A stretch of 64,000 nucleotides of DNA from Flavobacteriaceae bacterium PS02334. Lineage in GTDB: Bacteria; Bacteroidota; Bacteroidia; Flavobacteriales; Flavobacteriaceae. Under the pieces are notes generated by a model, which saw only the letters and a list, made by a program, of their open reading frames with translations, searched no databases and was not told where the DNA came from. A program made the position numbers and the translations under genes. Location: assembly GCA_029959295.1 (NCBI GenBank), contig JASCOH010000002.1:310001-374000 (forward strand). The letters are read 5' to 3'. Every line of letters starts with the position of its first letter. The stretch's first letter is position 1. Of this stretch, positions 32,014 through 40,013 are shown piece after piece.

Positions 32014-32595
32014 TTATTTGCCTTTTGTCAATTGTCTTTTGCCGATTTTCTTCGTTGGATAGCTTCTTTTTGAAGTCAAATTATTGAAAATCAAAGCGGT
32101 TACCAGCAAAATCAAAGCGCCTGAAAGCACAGGAGAAATTACGTAGAAATAACCCAGACTTTTAATTTGCGGAGAAGCCGTCGCAGCAATCAAAGCGGTG
32201 GCGCCACCAGGCGGATGCAGTGTTTTGGTAATCTGCATGAGCACGATGGAAAGCGAAACGGCAAGCGGTGCGGCAATCCATAAGATGTCTGGGATTAATT
32301 TTTGGATGGTGACACCGACAAGAGCAGAAACAACGTGGCCTCCGATAAGATTTCTTGGCTGGGCAAGCGGACTCTGGATTACGCCGTAAACCAAAACGCA
32401 AGATGCGCCGAAGGAACCGATGAGAAGCACCATATCGGTATTTGAAAAGGTTTTATATTGCAGGAAAGCGATGATTCCCATGCCTACAAATGAGCCTATG
32501 AAAGCCCAGAAATGTTCGGTAAAATCTACAAGCGTTTCTTTGTAGAGCACATATTTTGTCTTGCGATAAGTTCGCTTGATTCTTTTGACAGGCAT
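32014..32595 (-). CDS. HPP family membrane protein
   Basis: 193 residues with four predicted membrane helices (about 30-50, 58-78, 85-130, 150-175). It contains the defining motif HPPGGATAL after ITKTL. HPP proteins have been linked to nitrite transport in plants and cyanobacteria; in Bacteroidota the role is not settled. Its start codon overlaps the ClC gene stop by one base (TAATG), so translation is coupled to the chloride-channel gene, which suggests a joint role in anion movement. Confidence 0.88.
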   Translation of the reverse strand: MPVKRIKRTYRKTKYVLYKETLVDFTEHFWAFIGSFVGMGIIAFLQYKTFSNTDMVLLIGSFGASCVLVYGVIQSPLAQPRNLIGGHVVSALVGVTIQKLIPDILWIAAPLAVSLSIVLMQITKTLHPPGGATALIAATASPQIKSLGYFYVISPVLSGALILLVTALIFNNLTSKRSYPTKKIGKRQLTKGK

Positions 32596-33872
32596 TATTT
32601 TGCTAGGCTTTCTTTATAGGAATACACGGTGAAAGGGTAGATTTTTTGGGCCGTGTATTTTGAAACCAGACAGACCAAAAGAATCGGGAAGAACAAAGTG
32701 TAATCATTGATGACACCGCAAACTAAAAATAAGGCGGTGAAAGGCGCGTGGATGCTGGCGCTTAACATGGCGGCCATTCCGATGATCATGAAATTAAGCG
32801 GAATGACGTTTGCGCTGAAGAAAGTATTGACGCAAAGTGCGGTTAATAATCCTAAAAAGGCACCGATGAAAAGGCTTGGTGCAAAAACGCCACCGTCGCC
32901 ACCTGCTGAAAGCGTGATCGAAGTAACGATTGGCTTCATCACTAAGATTGCCAAGATAGTCAAGGTCAATGAAACGGTCAAGACATCAGTGTTTGCTGAA
33001 AGAATGCTGTGTTTGATGGCATGATAACCGTCACCATAAAGCTGTGGCAAGACAAGTAAAGAAACCGTTAAAATAATGGCGCCAAGGATGATCTTGTGGT
33101 AATGAACTTGGATTTTTGAGAACTGCTTTTTAAAGAATAAAACGCATTTGGTTAAGTAAATGGAGTTCATTCCGGCAATGATTCCCAAGAGAATAAAGTA
33201 GGGAATCGCGTGGTAATGCCAAGTGTTTATTGCGACTTCAAAAAGCGGTTTTTCGTCTAAGACCAAAAGAAATGCGCTGGCAATGGTGATGGAAATCAGT
33301 ATTGTAATTAAGAATACTTTTGAAAGTTTTTTTGAAATGACCTCATAAGCGAAGAGCAGGCCGGCCAATGGGCTTGAAAAGAGGGCTGTTATTCCGGCAG
33401 CTACGCCGGCGCAGATTAGTTCGGTTTTGTATTTTTTGAAAAAGTTTTCTTTAGTGTGGGCTACAGAACCAATTGTTGCGGTTGCGACTACGGTAGAAAC
33501 TTCAATTCCAGTAGAACCTCCAAAAGCAACTGTAATCAAGCCGTTTATGAAATGCGAAGGAATTTTATATAAAGGCAAATTTTTAGAAGAGGAAGTACTT
33601 TCAAAGACTTCCTTTATGCCTTTGTTTTCTTTCTTTTTAAAAAGGTATTGTCTTAAGAAGTAAATTATGGATAGTCCAAAAATTGGAAAAATCAGCAAGA
33701 ACAGAAAGTTTTCCTGCGTTTTGGCAAAGAAAATTTCTTCATAATGTTCCGTAATATGTTTTAAGGAAACGGCTAAAAGTGCGGCTAAAAATCCGATCAG
33801 AATAGAGACGATTGTCAGTTTTTGCCATTTGATCCGGTTGTAGTTTTTTTTGATAGAAGTGTGTGTGCTCAT
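32595..33872 (-). CDS. ClC family voltage-gated chloride channel / H+-Cl- antiporter
   Basis: 425 residues from the ATG at 33872 (the upstream ATG adds 11 residues unlike a ClC start). About ten hydrophobic segments. ClC selectivity regions are visible: GGSTGIEVSTVV (counterpart of GREGP, with the gating Glu retained but the proline absent) and GGDGGVFAPSLFIGAFLG (counterpart of GGxxGxFxPSLxxGA). It has no C-terminal CBS pair. Upstream start of a two-gene unit with the HPP gene. Channel versus antiporter cannot be told here. Confidence 0.88.
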   Translation of the reverse strand: MSTHTSIKKNYNRIKWQKLTIVSILIGFLAALLAVSLKHITEHYEEIFFAKTQENFLFLLIFPIFGLSIIYFLRQYLFKKKENKGIKEVFESTSSSKNLPLYKIPSHFINGLITVAFGGSTGIEVSTVVATATIGSVAHTKENFFKKYKTELICAGVAAGITALFSSPLAGLLFAYEVISKKLSKVFLITILISITIASAFLLVLDEKPLFEVAINTWHYHAIPYFILLGIIAGMNSIYLTKCVLFFKKQFSKIQVHYHKIILGAIILTVSLLVLPQLYGDGYHAIKHSILSANTDVLTVSLTLTILAILVMKPIVTSITLSAGGDGGVFAPSLFIGAFLGLLTALCVNTFFSANVIPLNFMIIGMAAMLSASIHAPFTALFLVCGVINDYTLFFPILLVCLVSKYTAQKIYPFTVYSYKESLAK

Positions 33873-33981: not shown

Positions 33982-34053
33982 ACAATTCATCCTTGAAATT
34001 TTACAGTTCAGTAATGAAGTTTGTGAAAAAGTAAATTTATAATAGCAAATTTG
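33982..34053 (+). promoter_or_regulatory. LytTR-type operator and promoter of the TonB receptor gene
   Basis: Two 9-bp direct repeats, ACAATTCAT (33982-33990) and ACAGTTCAG (34003-34011), are spaced 12 bp apart (21 bp start to start). The second fits the LytTR consensus [TA][AC][CA]GTTN[AG][TG] exactly; the first differs by G to A. AGCAAATTTG at 34044-34053 is the -7-like region. The whole layout is repeated in front of the TPR gene (36327-36397). Confidence 0.75.
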
Positions 34054-34074
34054 CTCCAACAAAAACAACCAATC

Positions 34075-36228
34075 ATGAAACTGACCTTTACTATCTTGCT
34101 CTTATTTGTTTTCCAACTGGGTTTTTCGCAACACGTTATATCTGGAAAAGTAACTGACGCAAAAGGAAAAGCGATTGCTGGAGCCAATATTTTTATTGAA
34201 GGAACTTATGACGGCAATTCTTCAAACGAAGAAGGGAATTTCAGCTTTGAAACTTCAGCAAAAGGACAGCAGACATTGGTTGTCAGCTTTCTTACTTATG
34301 AAACTTTAAACCAAGTGATCAATGTGGAAGATTTTAAAGGAAAAACGCTAAAACTTAACGAATCAGTAAATACGCTTGACGCTGTTGTCATTACCGCAGG
34401 AATGATGGAATCGGGCGATAAAGCAAGGGTTTCTGTCTTAAAACCTTTGGATATTGTGACAACTGCGGGAGCGACGGGCAATATTGTGAGCGCTTTGCTG
34501 ACGCTTCCAGGGACGCAGACTGTTGGTGAAGATGGCCGTCTTTTTGTTCGCGGCGGTGAGGCCGATGAAGCGCAGACTTATGTGGACGGACTTCGTGTAG
34601 CGCAGCCTTATGGCGCTACGGCAAATAATTTGCCTACTAGAGGACGCTTTTCGCCTTTTCTTTTTAGTGGGATTTCGTTTTCAACAGGCGGTTATTCTGC
34701 AGAATATGGCGAAGCCTTGTCTAGCGTTTTGCTTTTGAATACAATTGAAGAACCGGACCAAAATCGTACAGATATTTCTTTGATGACTGTTGGTTTAGGC
34801 TTGAGCAATACTCAAAAATGGGACAAGAGTTCGCTGAGCGTGAATACTTCTTATATCAATTTGGCACCTTATCAAGTGGCTCTTCCGCAGGCTGTGGACT
34901 GGAATAAGCCTTATGAATCACTTTCGGGAGAAACGGTTTACCGCTATAAATTTAACAATGGAACTTTGAAAACTTATCTGGCTTTTGATGCGGCTAATTT
35001 TGACTTAAATCAAGAAAATATAAATAAACAGGAAAAAGTAAGAGTAGATATGAAGAATAATAATTTCTATTTGAATTCTTCTTATAAAGGTTATTTCGGA
35101 AGCAATTATCAATTGACGACAGGCTTGAGCTATGGCTATTCCCAGAATAAAATTAATCTTGATGAAGACCGCGTGAAAAATGCTGAAAACGCCTTTCATT
35201 TAAAGTTGAAGGTAAGCAAAAAGCTTTCGGAAAGAGTACAATTAAGTGCGGGAACCGATTATTTCATCACGAAATTTGATGAAGATTTTACCGAATACCA
35301 CTCTGCAACTTTTTCATCTGGTTATGACAATAATATTGCTGGAGCTTATGCAGAAAGCGATATCTTTTTCTCTAAAAACTTTGCTTTAAAAGCGGGTGTC
35401 AGAGCTTCTTATTCTGATTTATTGGAAGAATCGCATGTTTCTCCAAGAGCTTCTTTGGCGTATAAATTTTCTCAAAACAGCCAGTTTTCTTTTGCTTATG
35501 GCGATTTTATTCAGTCTCCGAAGCAAGACTATTTGAAATATTCGAGTCAATTTGAAAGCGAGAAAACGTCGCACTATATTTTGAATTACCAATATAACAA
35601 GACAGGAAGAACCTTCAGAGCGGAAGCTTACTTCAAAGATTATCGTGATTTGGTAAAATATGATACCCAAGTTTCGCAGTTTGATTCTCAGTTTAACAAT
35701 AACGGAAAAGGCTATGCAAAAGGACTGGATTTCTTTTGGAGAGATAATACTTCCATCAAAAATTTAGAATATTGGATTTCGTACTCTTATATCGATACGG
35801 AAAGAGATTATAAAAACTATCCAAAGCAAGTGACGCCGAGCTTTGTTGCCGATCATTCGCTGTCAATTGTTACAAAATATTGGATTAATGATTGGAGATC
35901 GCAAGTAGGTTTCACGCACAGTTTTAATTCGGGAAGACCTTATAATAACCCAAATGAATCGGCTTTCATGAATGGAAAGACGAAATCTTACAATAATTTG
36001 AGCTTCAACTGGGCTTATCTGATTTCACAGCAGAAGATTCTTTATTTCTCGGTTTCAAATATTTTAGGAACTGATAATGTCTTTGGTTATGACTATGCAA
36101 ATAATCCAGATGCTAGCGGTCAATTTCCAAGACAGGCAGTAAAACAGCCGGCAGACAGATTTTTCTTCGTAGGATTCTTTTGGACAATCAGTGATAATAA
36201 AAAGGAGAATCAGTTGAAGAATTTGTAA
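34075..36228 (+). CDS. TonB-dependent receptor with carboxypeptidase-like N-terminal domain
   Basis: Outer-membrane active transporter, 717 residues from the ATG at 34075, which gives signal peptide MKLTFTILLLFVFQLGFSQ. Residues about 21-100 are a CarboxypepD_reg-like domain (HVISGKVTDAKGKAIAGANIF, SNEEGNFSF). The plug domain has VSALLTLPGTQTVGEDGRLFVRGGEADEAQTYVDGLRV, and GYSAEYGEALSSVL ends it. A beta-barrel follows to FFVGFFWTIS; the extra 12 residues after that strand are unusual. No SusD partner is nearby, so it is probably not a Sus-type glycan system. Its operator matches that of the TPR/kinase/LytTR cluster downstream, so it is likely a regulon member. Substrate unknown. Confidence 0.9.
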   Translation: MKLTFTILLLFVFQLGFSQHVISGKVTDAKGKAIAGANIFIEGTYDGNSSNEEGNFSFETSAKGQQTLVVSFLTYETLNQVINVEDFKGKTLKLNESVNTLDAVVITAGMMESGDKARVSVLKPLDIVTTAGATGNIVSALLTLPGTQTVGEDGRLFVRGGEADEAQTYVDGLRVAQPYGATANNLPTRGRFSPFLFSGISFSTGGYSAEYGEALSSVLLLNTIEEPDQNRTDISLMTVGLGLSNTQKWDKSSLSVNTSYINLAPYQVALPQAVDWNKPYESLSGETVYRYKFNNGTLKTYLAFDAANFDLNQENINKQEKVRVDMKNNNFYLNSSYKGYFGSNYQLTTGLSYGYSQNKINLDEDRVKNAENAFHLKLKVSKKLSERVQLSAGTDYFITKFDEDFTEYHSATFSSGYDNNIAGAYAESDIFFSKNFALKAGVRASYSDLLEESHVSPRASLAYKFSQNSQFSFAYGDFIQSPKQDYLKYSSQFESEKTSHYILNYQYNKTGRTFRAEAYFKDYRDLVKYDTQVSQFDSQFNNNGKGYAKGLDFFWRDNTSIKNLEYWISYSYIDTERDYKNYPKQVTPSFVADHSLSIVTKYWINDWRSQVGFTHSFNSGRPYNNPNESAFMNGKTKSYNNLSFNWAYLISQQKILYFSVSNILGTDNVFGYDYANNPDASGQFPRQAVKQPADRFFFVGFFWTISDNKKENQLKNL

Positions 36229-36253
36229 GGGAAGGCGCTGCGTTTGTAAGGAA

Positions 36254-36320
36254 CTTAGGCACTAAGGTTTTTAGCTAGGATTTACCTTAGCGCCTTAGCA
36301 TCTAAAACCCTTAGCATCTT
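36254..36320. repeat. Third copy of the CTTAGCGCCTTAG repeat
   Basis: 36254-36267 and 36285-36298 form an inverted repeat (12 of 14 bases, CTTAGGCACTAAGG / CCTTAGCGCCTTAG). The segment 36286-36320 matches the reverse complement of the boundary repeat at 29161-29200. It lies between the TonB receptor stop and the next operator; no four-helix gene is present here. Confidence 0.7.
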
Positions 36321-36326
36321 TAAAAA

Positions 36327-36397
36327 ACAATTCATCATCAAAATTCTACAGTTCAGCAAAAGTATTTTTTATAGGAACATATTTAGAAGCAAATTTG
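36327..36397 (+). promoter_or_regulatory. LytTR-type operator and promoter of the TPR-kinase-2TM-LytTR cluster
   Basis: Same 9-bp repeats as at 33982: ACAATTCAT (36327-36335) and ACAGTTCAG (36348-36356), again 21 bp start to start. AGCAAATTTG follows at 36388-36397, 42 bp after the second repeat (43 at the other site). Conservation of words and spacing across two promoters 2.3 kb apart argues for one regulator; the LytTR regulator at 39258 is the obvious candidate. Confidence 0.75.
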
Positions 36398-36443: not shown

Positions 36444-37067
36444 ATGACAAGACTAATTGTAACATTCGTATTTTTTATCACCAGTTTAGTTTCGGCGCAA
36501 AGCCAATATGAAACCGGAATGCAGAAAGCATTTGGGCTTTGGGGCGAAGGAAAAGACGCAGATGCTTCGGCAATGTTTGAAAGAATTGCCTCGGCAGAGA
36601 AGGATAACTGGCTGCCGAATTATTATGTGGCCTTGGTGAATTCGACTTCTGCATTTAAAACCAAAGACAAAACTCAGATTTCGGCATTGTTAGGAAAAGC
36701 GCAAGAAGCTTTGGATAAAGAACTAGATAAAAATCCGAATAATGCAGAATTGTTGGTTGTTCAGGCTTTGATAAATACAGCTTGGGTTGTAGCAGATCCG
36801 ATGACAAACGGGATGAAACTTTCGGCAAAAACAGTTGAAATTTATAATAAAGCAATTGCTATTGAGCCAAATAATCCGAGAGCTGTGTTTGGAAAAGCAG
36901 AATTCGAAATCGGCGGCGCCAGATATTTTGGAAGCGACACAAAACCAATGTGCGCCCAAATTGACAAAGCAATTGAACTTTTTGCTACTTTTAAACCGCA
37001 AACTCCGTTTCATCCAAATTGGGGATTAGAAAGAGCCTTGGAAGCGCAAAAAGAATGCAAAAAATAA
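36444..37067 (+). CDS. Secreted tetratricopeptide-like protein
   Basis: 207 residues with signal peptide MTRLIVTFVFFITSLVSAQSQ, so periplasmic. Helical repeats are TPR-like: GMQKAFGLWGEGKDADASAMFERIASAEKDNWLPNYYVALV (first unit) and AVFGKAEFEIGGARYFG later, with a middle segment rich in Asn/Lys (DKNPNNAELLVVQALI, AIEPNNPRAVFGKA). First gene after the LytTR-type operator, 53 nt before the kinase. It may be a periplasmic partner of the TonB receptor or a sensor input for the kinase; neither is shown. Confidence 0.85.
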   Translation: MTRLIVTFVFFITSLVSAQSQYETGMQKAFGLWGEGKDADASAMFERIASAEKDNWLPNYYVALVNSTSAFKTKDKTQISALLGKAQEALDKELDKNPNNAELLVVQALINTAWVVADPMTNGMKLSAKTVEIYNKAIAIEPNNPRAVFGKAEFEIGGARYFGSDTKPMCAQIDKAIELFATFKPQTPFHPNWGLERALEAQKECKK

Positions 37068-37120: not shown

Positions 37121-38476
37121 ATGCAAAAAATCACCAAATATTTTTTTAAATCGCTGCTTCGTGGATTTGTCGTGAGCATTGTTATTGCAGGTTTGTTTAT
37201 TTCTTTGGAAATTGTTTTTGGGCGAAAAGTGCATGTAAACGCCGACCTTTTTATAGAAATCGGATACTATTGTTTGTATGGCGTTACTCTGACATTGCTG
37301 AACGGAATTTTCTTTGACTATTTAAATCATGAAATTGTTTGGAACAAATACAAGAAATTTAGAATTATCATCGGAGTTTTAGGAAGCATAATTCTTACTA
37401 TCATCGGCATATTTTTCTTAAGGTTTTTCATAAAAGTTTTTCTTGAAAACAGCAGCCTTGCCGATTTTATACAAGGTGAGAATATCAAGAATTATTTTAT
37501 TTCTATACTGATTACGCTGGTGGTTTCTTTGTTTTTCCATACGCTTTATTTCTATAAAAAATCGCAGGAGAACAAAGTCAAAGAACAGAAAATTATTGCG
37601 GGAACAGCTTCCGCGAAATTTGAAAGCCTTAAGAATCAGATTGATCCGCATTTTCTTTTTAATAGCTTGAACGTTCTTTCGTCATTGATTGAAGAAAATC
37701 CTGATAATGCGCAGCGGTTTACGTCGTCGCTTTCAAAGATTTACAGATATGTTTTAGAGCAGAAAGACAAAGAATTGGTAAGCGTGGAGGAGGAATTGTC
37801 GTTTGCAAAAACCTATATGAATTTGCTGAAAATGCGTTTTGAGAATAGCGTTTTTTATGAAGTTCCAGAGCATATTTCAAATTTAGAAGCCAAGGTGGTT
37901 CCGTTATCACTGCAATTGCTTTTGGAAAATACGGTAAAACATAATATTGCCAGCGAAAGCAAGCCATTGCATATCAAAATTTATGAAAAAGGAGATTATC
38001 TGGTCATCGAAAACGATTATCAAAAGAAGGAAGTGCTGCAAGATAGAAAAGGCGTAGGGCTCCAAAACATCATCAACAGATATTCAATTATTACAAACAG
38101 AAAAGTCAGGATTGAACAAAACGAAAAGTATTTTAGAGTGGAAATTCCAATGCTGACCAAACAAATTTCGATTATGAAAACAGATTATTCAAACCAGCAA
38201 AATATATACTTAAAAGCTCAAAAACGAGTAGAAGATATCAAAGGATTCTATGGAAACCTAACTATGTACATGGTTGTCATTACTGGATTGGCAATTTTAA
38301 ATATAACAACCAGCGCCCAACATCTTTGGTTTCTTTATCCTGGAATAGGGTGGGGAATCGGCGTCTTATTTCACGGAATGTCAGTTTTTAATGTAATTCC
38401 TTTTTTAGGGAAAGACTGGGAAGAAAGAAAAATCAACGAATTGATGCAAAAAGACAAATCGGATAAATGGCAATGA
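37121..38476 (+). CDS. LytS-like sensor histidine kinase with C-terminal 2TM domain
   Basis: 451 residues. Four predicted N-terminal membrane helices (about 14-33, 46-66, 80-102, 126-147), then a His_kinase domain with His177 in NQIDPHFLFNSLN and a compact HATPase region (PLSLQLLLENTVKHNI; GVGLQNIINRY). Unusually, the catalytic part is followed by a 2TM domain (about 365-450: KAQKRVEDIKGFYGNLTMYMVV and PFLGKDWEERKI), the same module that forms the next two genes. The catalytic core therefore sits between two membrane blocks. It overlaps the next gene by 4 nt. Likely phosphorylates the LytTR regulator at 39258. Confidence 0.9.
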   Translation: MQKITKYFFKSLLRGFVVSIVIAGLFISLEIVFGRKVHVNADLFIEIGYYCLYGVTLTLLNGIFFDYLNHEIVWNKYKKFRIIIGVLGSIILTIIGIFFLRFFIKVFLENSSLADFIQGENIKNYFISILITLVVSLFFHTLYFYKKSQENKVKEQKIIAGTASAKFESLKNQIDPHFLFNSLNVLSSLIEENPDNAQRFTSSLSKIYRYVLEQKDKELVSVEEELSFAKTYMNLLKMRFENSVFYEVPEHISNLEAKVVPLSLQLLLENTVKHNIASESKPLHIKIYEKGDYLVIENDYQKKEVLQDRKGVGLQNIINRYSIITNRKVRIEQNEKYFRVEIPMLTKQISIMKTDYSNQQNIYLKAQKRVEDIKGFYGNLTMYMVVITGLAILNITTSAQHLWFLYPGIGWGIGVLFHGMSVFNVIPFLGKDWEERKINELMQKDKSDKWQ

Positions 38477-38805
38477 TTAAAACTGTAACGATGGAAGATT
38501 TTGATAAAAAAGAATTCAGATATGAAAAGGCCAAAAAGAAAGCCAAAAACCTGCGCGGTTTTTATTTCAATTTGATGTCTTATTGCGTTGTAATTCCAAC
38601 ATTAATTACTGTCAATTTAATTTATATGCCAGAATTTCATTGGTTTTGGTTCTCAATGTTAGGCTGGGGTACAGGAATTTTAGCGCATGGAATGGAAGTT
38701 TTTCAGTTCAATCCTTTTTTAGGAAAAAACTGGGAAGAAAGAAAAATGCAGGAATTTATCGATCAAGAATTAGAGAAACGTAAAAAAACAAATAATCAAT
38801 ACTAA
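38473..38805 (+). CDS. 2TM domain-containing protein (first)
   Basis: 110 residues from ATG 38473, whose ATGA overlaps the kinase stop codon. An ATG 6 nt upstream is also possible. A single 2TM domain (PF13239 as I know it): EKAKKKAKNLRGFYFNLMSYCVV, two helices joined near YMPEFHWFWFSMLGWGTGI, then HGMEVFQFNPFLGKNWEERKMQEF. Nearly the same architecture as the kinase's C-terminal domain. Inferred role: membrane partner that binds or tunes the kinase. Confidence 0.85.
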   Translation: MIKTVTMEDFDKKEFRYEKAKKKAKNLRGFYFNLMSYCVVIPTLITVNLIYMPEFHWFWFSMLGWGTGILAHGMEVFQFNPFLGKNWEERKMQEFIDQELEKRKKTNNQY

Positions 38806-38812
38806 ACAAATT

Positions 38813-39130
38813 ATGGAAAATTTAAACTTTACCGAACAGCAACGATTTGAAAGAGCCCAAAAAAGAGTAAAGAAAATCTCAGGTTTTTACAAGCACTTGA
38901 TGGCGTATGTTTTAGTGAATTTATTTTTAATCACTTTGCAATATTTTAATTTAGATAAAGGAGAAAATTTTCTTAAGTTTTCAACATTTTCAACTGCCTT
39001 TTTCTGGGGAATTGGTTTGACTTTTCATGCGGTTTCCGTTTTTGGAAAAAACATTTTCTTAGGCAGTAATTGGGAAGAAAAGAAAATCCAACAATTTATG
39101 GAGAAAGAAAAAACCAGCAAGTGGGAGTAA
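38813..39130 (+). CDS. 2TM domain-containing protein (second)
   Basis: 105 residues, 7 nt after the preceding gene. Pattern matches: RFERAQKRVKKISGFYKHLMAYVLV, two membrane helices, then GKNIFLGSNWEEKKIQQFMEKE. Diverged from the first copy but clearly paralogous. Three 2TM copies in sequence suggest they assemble together in the membrane. Confidence 0.85.
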   Translation: MENLNFTEQQRFERAQKRVKKISGFYKHLMAYVLVNLFLITLQYFNLDKGENFLKFSTFSTAFFWGIGLTFHAVSVFGKNIFLGSNWEEKKIQQFMEKEKTSKWE

Positions 39131-39257: not shown

Positions 39258-40013
39258 ATGAATATCATCATCATTGAAGACGAAAAGCCTTCAGCAAGAT
39301 TGCTCCAAAGAAAGATTGAAAAACTCGGATTTCAGGTCAATACGCTTTTGCATTCTGTTGAAGAAGCTATAAATTGGTTCAAAAATAACACGCATCCTGA
39401 CTTGATTTTCTTGGATATTCAGCTATCTGACGGACTTTCTTTTGAAATTTTTGATTCGGTAGCTATTAAAAGTGCAATCATTTTTACGACAGCTTATGAC
39501 GAATATGCGCTTCGTGCTTTTAAATTGAACAGCATCGATTATCTTTTAAAACCAATTGATGAAGATGATTTGGAAGTTGCCGTAAACAAATTTAAAGCGC
39601 GACAGCCAAAGCCAGAATCAGTGCCTTTTGATATTGAAATGATTAAAAAAATGCTCGTGAGTCCGGAAGTGAAAACCTATAAAAAACGTTTTACCATCAA
39701 AACCGGACAGCATTTGAAAGTAATCAATATCGAAGAAGTAGAATGTTTTTACAGCGAAAATAAAGGAACTTACCTGCACACTTTCGACAACCGAGATTAT
39801 CTTTTGGAAGGAACTCTAGAGCAATTGGAAGTAGAATTAGATCCAAAAGATTTCTTCCGCGTAAGCCGAAAATTCATTGTTCCCATGAAAGGAATTAAGG
39901 ATATTGTGGTTTACAGCAATTCTAGATTGAAAGTAATTCTGCCAACTTACAAAGAAGATGAGGTTATCGTGAGCAGGGAAAGAGTCAATGATTTCAAAAC
40001 TTGGATTGCATAA
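39258..40013 (+). CDS. LytTR family response regulator
   Basis: 251 residues. Receiver domain 1-120 with acidic Glu7/Asp8, phosphoacceptor Asp53 (LIFLDIQLSDG), switch Thr (IIFTTAYDEYAL) and Lys (YLLKPIDEDD). LytTR DNA-binding domain about 145-251: KRFTIKTGQHLKVINIEEVECFYSENKGTYLH, then FFRVSRKFIVPMKGI, which contains the conserved HRS-like position (here VSRKF). Probably partnered with the kinase at 37121 and the likely binder of the two matching operators at 33982 and 36327, one of which precedes its own cluster. Confidence 0.93.
   Translation: MNIIIIEDEKPSARLLQRKIEKLGFQVNTLLHSVEEAINWFKNNTHPDLIFLDIQLSDGLSFEIFDSVAIKSAIIFTTAYDEYALRAFKLNSIDYLLKPIDEDDLEVAVNKFKARQPKPESVPFDIEMIKKMLVSPEVKTYKKRFTIKTGQHLKVINIEEVECFYSENKGTYLHTFDNRDYLLEGTLEQLEVELDPKDFFRVSRKFIVPMKGIKDIVVYSNSRLKVILPTYKEDEVIVSRERVNDFKTWIA

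Follow-up and report, generated by a model that had tools for sequence, protein, structure and literature searches.

Two identical copies of a paired 9-bp direct repeat precede a gene for a TonB-dependent receptor and a gene cluster that encodes a LytS-type kinase and a LytTR response regulator, and one sensor-controlled regulator very likely turns on both the receptor and its own gene cluster. The window, the whole stretch of DNA that was analyzed, comprises 64,000 nucleotides of Flavobacteriaceae bacterium PS02334 (contig JASCOH010000002.1, positions 310,001 to 374,000), and the putative repeat-pair switch that it carries is shared by most of the Flavobacteriaceae sampled. The sites, their conservation, their fixed geometry and their co-occurrence with the regulator are direct observations, and we are highly confident that they are best explained by a two-component LytTR activator that would feed back positively on its own operon and serve a small regulon, also in trans. 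The features of the locus are the following:

33982..34011, + strand: putative operator 1, ACAATTCAT-N12-ACAGTTCAG, 9-bp direct repeats upstream of the TonB receptor
34020-34023, + strand: possible -33 TTTG of the receptor promoter, from the sequence
34044-34053, + strand: first copy of AGCAAATTTG, from the sequence
34046..34053, + strand: -7 box CAAATTTG of the receptor promoter, TTTG at 34050-34053, 5/6 specified bases of TAnnTTTG
about 34058, + strand: predicted transcription start of the receptor promoter, from box placement
34075..36228, + strand: TonB-dependent receptor, 717 aa (Pfam PF13715, PF07715, PF00593)
36327..36356, + strand: putative operator 2, repeats identical to operator 1, upstream of the TPR-kinase-2TM-regulator cluster
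36367-36370, + strand: -33-like TTTT of the TPR promoter, from the sequence
36388-36397, + strand: second copy of AGCAAATTTG, from the sequence
36390..36397, + strand: -7 box CAAATTTG of the TPR promoter, TTTG exactly 37 nt after repeat 2
about 36402, + strand: predicted transcription start of the TPR promoter, from box placement
36444..37067, + strand: TPR-like protein, 207 aa (Pfam TPR matches just under the curated cut-offs)
37121..38476, + strand: LytS-type histidine kinase with a C-terminal 2TM domain, 451 aa (PF06580, PF13239)
38467..38805, + strand: 2TM-domain membrane protein, 112 aa (PF13239)
38813..39130, + strand: 2TM-domain membrane protein, 105 aa (PF13239)
39258..40013, + strand: LytTR response regulator, 251 aa, proposed activator (PF00072 and PF04397, above cut-offs)

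Pfam agrees with the gene calls of an earlier, sequence-only reading of this DNA, which had named a TonB receptor and a TPR/kinase/2TM/LytTR cluster. The kinase family test (37121-38473, E=1.7e-25) lies above the Pfam cut-off, the N-terminus of the receptor is a CarboxypepD_reg-like domain according to Pfam, and that of the TPR-like protein resembles, by eye, a signal peptide. The TPR-like protein was matched in 71 of the 101 genomes of the genus Flavobacterium (E<=1e-3), including four distant matches of 34-36% identity. At the structural level, the AlphaFold model of the receptor is poor (mean pLDDT 62.4, residues 97-225 below 50), a PDB sequence search with the receptor returned one match, an 85-residue chain of a SusC homologue (residues 19-85 only), and the only plausible match of a LytTR profile search of structures was 3d6w (E=0.0034). 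Next to the receptor, in divergent orientation, are the genes of a chloride channel of the CLC type and of a membrane protein with an HPP domain (32014-33869, - strand); some relatives likewise have the CLC gene close to the cluster. Clusters differ in how many 2TM-domain genes separate kinase from regulator (window 37121-39130; family clusters L274-L293).

The two 9-N12-9 repeat pairs that the sequence-only reading had placed at 33982-34011 and 36327-36356, with repeat starts 21 bp apart, were both recovered. When up to three mismatches were allowed, the window held two matches, both exact, against a shuffle mean of 0.04 and with two matches in 0/100 shuffles. A genome-wide scan for the repeat pair, which that reading had proposed as a check, found two exact matches in 4.585 Mb, both in the window, and with <=3 mismatches the same 4.585 Mb yielded 12 matches versus 3 for a reversed control. 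A chance origin of the repeat pairs is thus rejected by the window, genome and upstream-region counts relative to their controls. Under the operator model described below, the two sites scored E=1.8e-9 (receptor) and E=7.7e-13 (TPR) in the window's genome.

The sequence AGCAAATTTG follows each repeat pair at 41 bp (receptor site) and 40 bp (TPR site) from the first base of repeat 2, the 42-43 bp reported earlier being a miscount; counted from the last base of repeat 2 the distances are 33 and 32 bp, and the bases between repeat 2 and TTTG number 38 and 37, respectively. We considered AGCAAATTTG as a second operator and rejected it: it contains the -7 box CAAATTTG at its expected place, and is therefore better read as promoter than as operator. 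The Flavobacterium sigma-A -7 box is described in PMC9723704 as TAnnTTTG, placed from -12 to -5, and CAAATTTG matches this Bacteroidetes element with one mismatch.

Conservation was assessed in the best 80 of 307 loci retained by a regulator scan, nearly all of them titled Flavobacterium or Flavobacteriaceae, among which the gene order receptor-TPR-kinase-2TM-regulator is widely kept. For each gene, 350 bp of upstream sequence was scanned for the segment closest to the 18 repeat bases of the window, whose own sequence was the scoring reference; a score of at least 14 was counted, and genes with a start beyond reach or too near a contig end were left out. Among these best 80 of 307 loci the repeats lie upstream of the receptor in 58/58 scanned genes (59/59 with the window) and upstream of the TPR gene in 65/69 (66/70 with the window), while a score of 14 was reached by 1/295 and 0/350 shuffles in the receptor and TPR scans, respectively. 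The control upstream regions carried a site in 2/80 (RR), 1/79 (second 2TM), 0/22 (COX15) and 0/13 (CLC) cases, and the three kinase genes with a site among the 74 scanned belong to loci where no TPR match was found (L043, L088 and L114). In the four loci that count as TPR misses (L101, L102, L110 and L120) the site stands 632-773 nt ahead of the TPR gene and directly precedes a DUF2141-like ORF of 135-137 aa just upstream of it, which resembles, by eye, the Pfam-confirmed DUF2141 protein that the G088 cluster encodes between its receptor and TPR genes. The site is present in 72 of the 80 loci (best 80 of 307), the remaining eight (L044, L059, L076, L091, L105, L109, L113 and L117) being loci whose contigs begin inside the cluster. 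Loss of the repeats before orthologous genes was an outcome that the sequence-only reading had named as contradicting its proposal; they are conserved there, in the genus and in the family.

The spacing of these sites is nearly invariant. A -7 TTTG or TTTA stands 37 nt after repeat 2 in 66/66 TPR sites (window included) and in 58/59 receptor sites, the sole receptor site off this distance among the 59 being that of the window, at 38 nt. At this fixed place TTTG is found in 49/66 TPR sites, the remainder having TTTA, and in 58/59 receptor sites, whereas the full TAnnTTTG occurs in 30/66 and 10/59, respectively. The spacing of the ACANTTC pair is 21 nt in 53 TPR and 30 receptor cases, with other spacings in the range of 9-60 nt seen once. 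A T-rich, -33-like element begins 10 nt downstream of repeat 2 and, given a TAnnTTTG at -12 to -5, the repeat pair is centred near -60.

A recent copying of one promoter segment to the other place could also produce two identical sites, with no shared regulatory code, and the window itself lends this some colour: its repeats are 18/18 identical and its 12-nt gap is 67% identical. The comparison of many genomes contradicts it, since sites from the same genome (n=55 pairs, window included) have similarities of 0.87 in the repeats, 0.56 in the gap and 0.32 in columns 43-62, while sites from different genomes have 0.86, 0.58 and 0.31. Likeness outside the repeats is no higher within genomes than between them, and we consequently reject the copying of one promoter to the other and regard a recent copy as very improbable.

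For the preferred reading, that of a LytTR activator, we propose the following sequence of events. The kinase (37121-38476) would phosphorylate the LytTR regulator (39258-40013), and a regulator dimer would then bind each pair of 9-bp repeats, whose centre lies some 60 bp ahead of the predicted transcription start. From this position, which leaves about 10 bp to the -33 element and keeps the helical phase constant, the dimer would activate a sigma-A-type promoter; one such promoter would drive the TonB receptor and the other the TPR-kinase-2TM-2TM-regulator cluster, presumably read as a single transcript from TPR to regulator. Because the regulator's own cluster would be under its control, the system would amplify itself. 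The regulator would also act in trans on unlinked genes, which in many relatives include the receptor itself and DUF2141 genes.

That LytTR regulators activate transport genes and the operons encoding them is already known from ComE, AgrA, BtsSR/YpdAB and HdrRM. In the ComE system the regulator controls its own operon and the kinase senses a secreted peptide, AgrA receives a quorum-sensing input, and the ComE system is not known to include 2TM proteins. The ComE box of mitis-group streptococci is given as aCAnTTcaG-12-aCAgTTgaG, lying 31-32 bp from the -10 in most of the rows shown and 42 bp in one (PMC6001120); the repeat described here is nearly identical, with the same 12-bp gap and 33 bp to TAnnTTTG. 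It differs in belonging to another phylum and another sigma factor, and ComE targets early competence genes and no TonB receptor. More generally, a spacing of 12 bp is reported for most LytTR repeats, together with a marked preference for a position 10 bp upstream of -35 (PMC6193735). The HdrRM and BrsRM systems treated in the same source resemble the present one in repeat geometry, in positive-feedback autoregulation and in having membrane proteins in the operon, but differ in that their membrane protein is inhibitory and they are set apart from two-component systems (PMC6193735); the locus studied here has a receiver domain and a kinase, and not an inhibitory membrane protein in place of the kinase. 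In S. aureus P2/P3, an AgrA dimer binds two direct repeats with a centre at about -60 (PMC4227749), a placement near -60 and ahead of its own operon's promoters that is shared by our sites, while the targets and promoter type differ. In BtsSR and YpdAB, two-component LytS/LytTR systems of gamma-proteobacteria, conserved promoter motifs mediate the induction of a transport gene (PMC5552118); as described there, they differ in being pyruvate-responsive and in targeting the putative transporters YjiY and YhjX. The regulator is not recognized as their orthologue, its best NCBIfam match being BtsR at 98.7 bits versus a cut-off of 246, and YpdB is absent from the NCBIfam matches listed for it (best 25 of 41).

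The analogy with these systems bears on a different reading of the same sites, in which the regulator binds them and represses, or merely sets basal expression, so that the loop would be negative. The fixed distance upstream of -33 is like that of the promoters controlled by ComE, AgrA and HdrR, and overlap with the core promoter would be commoner for repressors; by this comparison, we give such a negative loop only a small chance. In the passages covered here, the Flavobacterium and family genome papers PMC5395568, PMC7440613 and PMC11278836 do no more than count LytTR genes or mention them by name, and no description of this LytTR regulon, or of the use of such a code with a Bacteroidetes promoter, was found among the matches listed from open-licence PMC full texts. 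The repeat pair, its 12-bp gap and the 37 nt to the -7 box provide a code that can be searched in any Flavobacteriaceae genome; defined from sequence alone, it points to one conserved TonB receptor and its DUF2141 partners.

We analyzed the co-occurrence of site and regulator with an operator model derived purely from the letters of 47 operator-promoters hand-picked from the fetched loci, the window excluded; training loci and test genomes overlap in part, and some loci are probably identical to test genomes. The thresholds (E<=1e-85 for the regulator, 1e-4 for the site) were chosen after the lists had been viewed, E<=1e-85 corresponding to a gap in the genus list, and the genomes are related, so that the counts are not independent events. 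A regulator orthologue (E<=1e-85) is present in 77/101 Flavobacterium genomes, and a model site (E<=1e-4) in 76/77 genomes with the regulator and in 2/24 without it. The one genome with a regulator below the site threshold, G058, has a model site at only 5.6e-4 and a repeat pair ahead of its kinase. The two genomes with a site and no regulator are G044, whose contig stops immediately after the receptor and the site that follows it, and G021, which is 86% complete and has a truncated receptor. The other 22 regulator-less genomes of the genus have no model match better than E=0.0026, and G019 retains a regulator remnant with stops and has no site. An exact-pattern scan matched 43/101 Flavobacterium genomes, with zero control matches.

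Among 299 Flavobacteriaceae genomes, the regulator was found in 228 (E<=1e-60) and the site in 227 (E<=1e-3): 222 have both, 66 neither, 6 the regulator only and 5 the site only (11 discordant of 299), for a Fisher value of 9e-53 that ignores shared ancestry and in which many of the listed regulator-less genomes are small. Three of the regulator-only genomes (G304, G111 and G161) have repeat pairs with 13-15 of 18 bases before the receptor, the kinase or both, and the other three (G216, G289 and G356) have weak model matches (E 0.0036-0.017). Of the site-only genomes, G151, G212 and G389 are 64-89% complete, and G369 (99% complete) has a weak site at 2.0e-4, with no orthologous regulator found. 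The fifth, G106 (99% complete), is a real exception: its best LytTR regulator is 35% identical and not orthologous, and it keeps three model sites, two of which (G106:C8; L334, L335) stand ahead of a DUF2141 gene and of a DUF2807-type gene that is 60% identical to a DUF2807 gene.

G106 also counts in favour of a reading in which another LytTR regulator, or several, mainly binds these sites and the neighbouring regulator has other targets. The window's genome encodes 12 LytTR genes, and a third site with exact geometry, listed below, lies near a paralogous kinase-regulator pair, both of which could suit such a reading. It is at odds with the tracking of the orthologous regulator by the sites across the 101 genus and 299 family genomes, and with ten genomes (G014, G020, G022, G027, G041, G050, G072, G076, G018 and G058) whose regulator operon has no TPR gene or receptor in the fetched stretch and where the site stays with the kinase-regulator operon, directly before the kinase. 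In addition, the fetched 17 kb around distant sites in seven genomes contain no ORF that is similar either to the regulator or to its paralogue, and the regions of ten of the eleven other LytTR genes have no comparable site, the best match there being 12 of 14 in two regions. We consider binding mainly by other regulators quite improbable, and the claim of the sequence-only reading that the same LytTR regulator serves both receptor and cluster appears well supported by sites that track the regulator and stay with its operon. A generic operator for every LytTR regulator of the cell likewise finds no support in these ten regions, the exception being near one paralogue. Two further sites in the window's genome are the following:

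G000:C22:435057-435127 (locus L172 3128), - strand: third site, TAGTTTTG without mismatch and at the fixed distance, upstream of a lipoprotein gene of redoxin/thioredoxin-like type
G000:C68:267991-268061 (locus L168), + strand: fourth, weaker candidate, with 2 mismatches and with TTTG at 37, upstream of a gene that by eye is alpha/beta-hydrolase-like

The paralogous LytS/LytTR pair near the third site has its kinase at a distance of 2.6 kb and its regulator, 33% identical to the proposed activator, at 3.6 kb; given this proximity, cross-binding between the paralogous pair and these sites is possible.

The site also follows the system when its genes are dispersed. Receptors that are unlinked keep it, on another contig in G055 and G090 and split off in G097, and in the second, diverged clusters of G058 and G020, with TPR and receptor 35-37% identical, a repeat pair precedes the TPR gene in one and is absent from the other. 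Among family clusters picked by hand, 20/20 have the site before the cluster or the receptor, L288 being without a recognised kinase. Forty further hand-picked family sites include three that precede cluster genes (TPR 2, kinase 1), and the other 37 precede a receptor orthologue (16), a DUF2141-type gene (15, L303 counted, grouped by similarity with three Pfam-checked), a PF00144 serine-hydrolase-fold gene (5, one Pfam-checked) or a DUF2807 gene (1); where the position of the regulator is listed, these 37 sites are at least 9 kb away or on another contig. The local transport regulon with feedback that had been proposed thus stands in so far as the receptor and the regulator's own cluster share the site; it is not confined to the locus, given that the site also stands before DUF2141 genes, receptor genes that are unlinked, and further genes.

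A broader generalization would make this a core positive-feedback switch of the Flavobacteriaceae, never described, in which the regulator (228/299 family genomes) controls a single orthologous TonB receptor wherever it is located, together with DUF2141 proteins, and in which the co-transcribed 2TM proteins are built-in anti-activators that fuse two-component and HdrRM-type logics. We put this forward as a speculative and rather unlikely possibility.

Two further gene types have the site upstream in large Flavobacterium genomes, one encoding a protein of ~351 aa (L182, L184, L187, L188) and the other a membrane-like protein of ~219 aa (L183, L185, L186, L235, L236); one of each, scanned against Pfam, gave no match, and the stretches fetched around them showed no ORF resembling the regulator. 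In other genera an extra site is located within the operon, just before the 2TM genes (L285:10191, L293:10246, L291:9621 and L283:2111), a position that suggests a separate control of the 2TM proteins.
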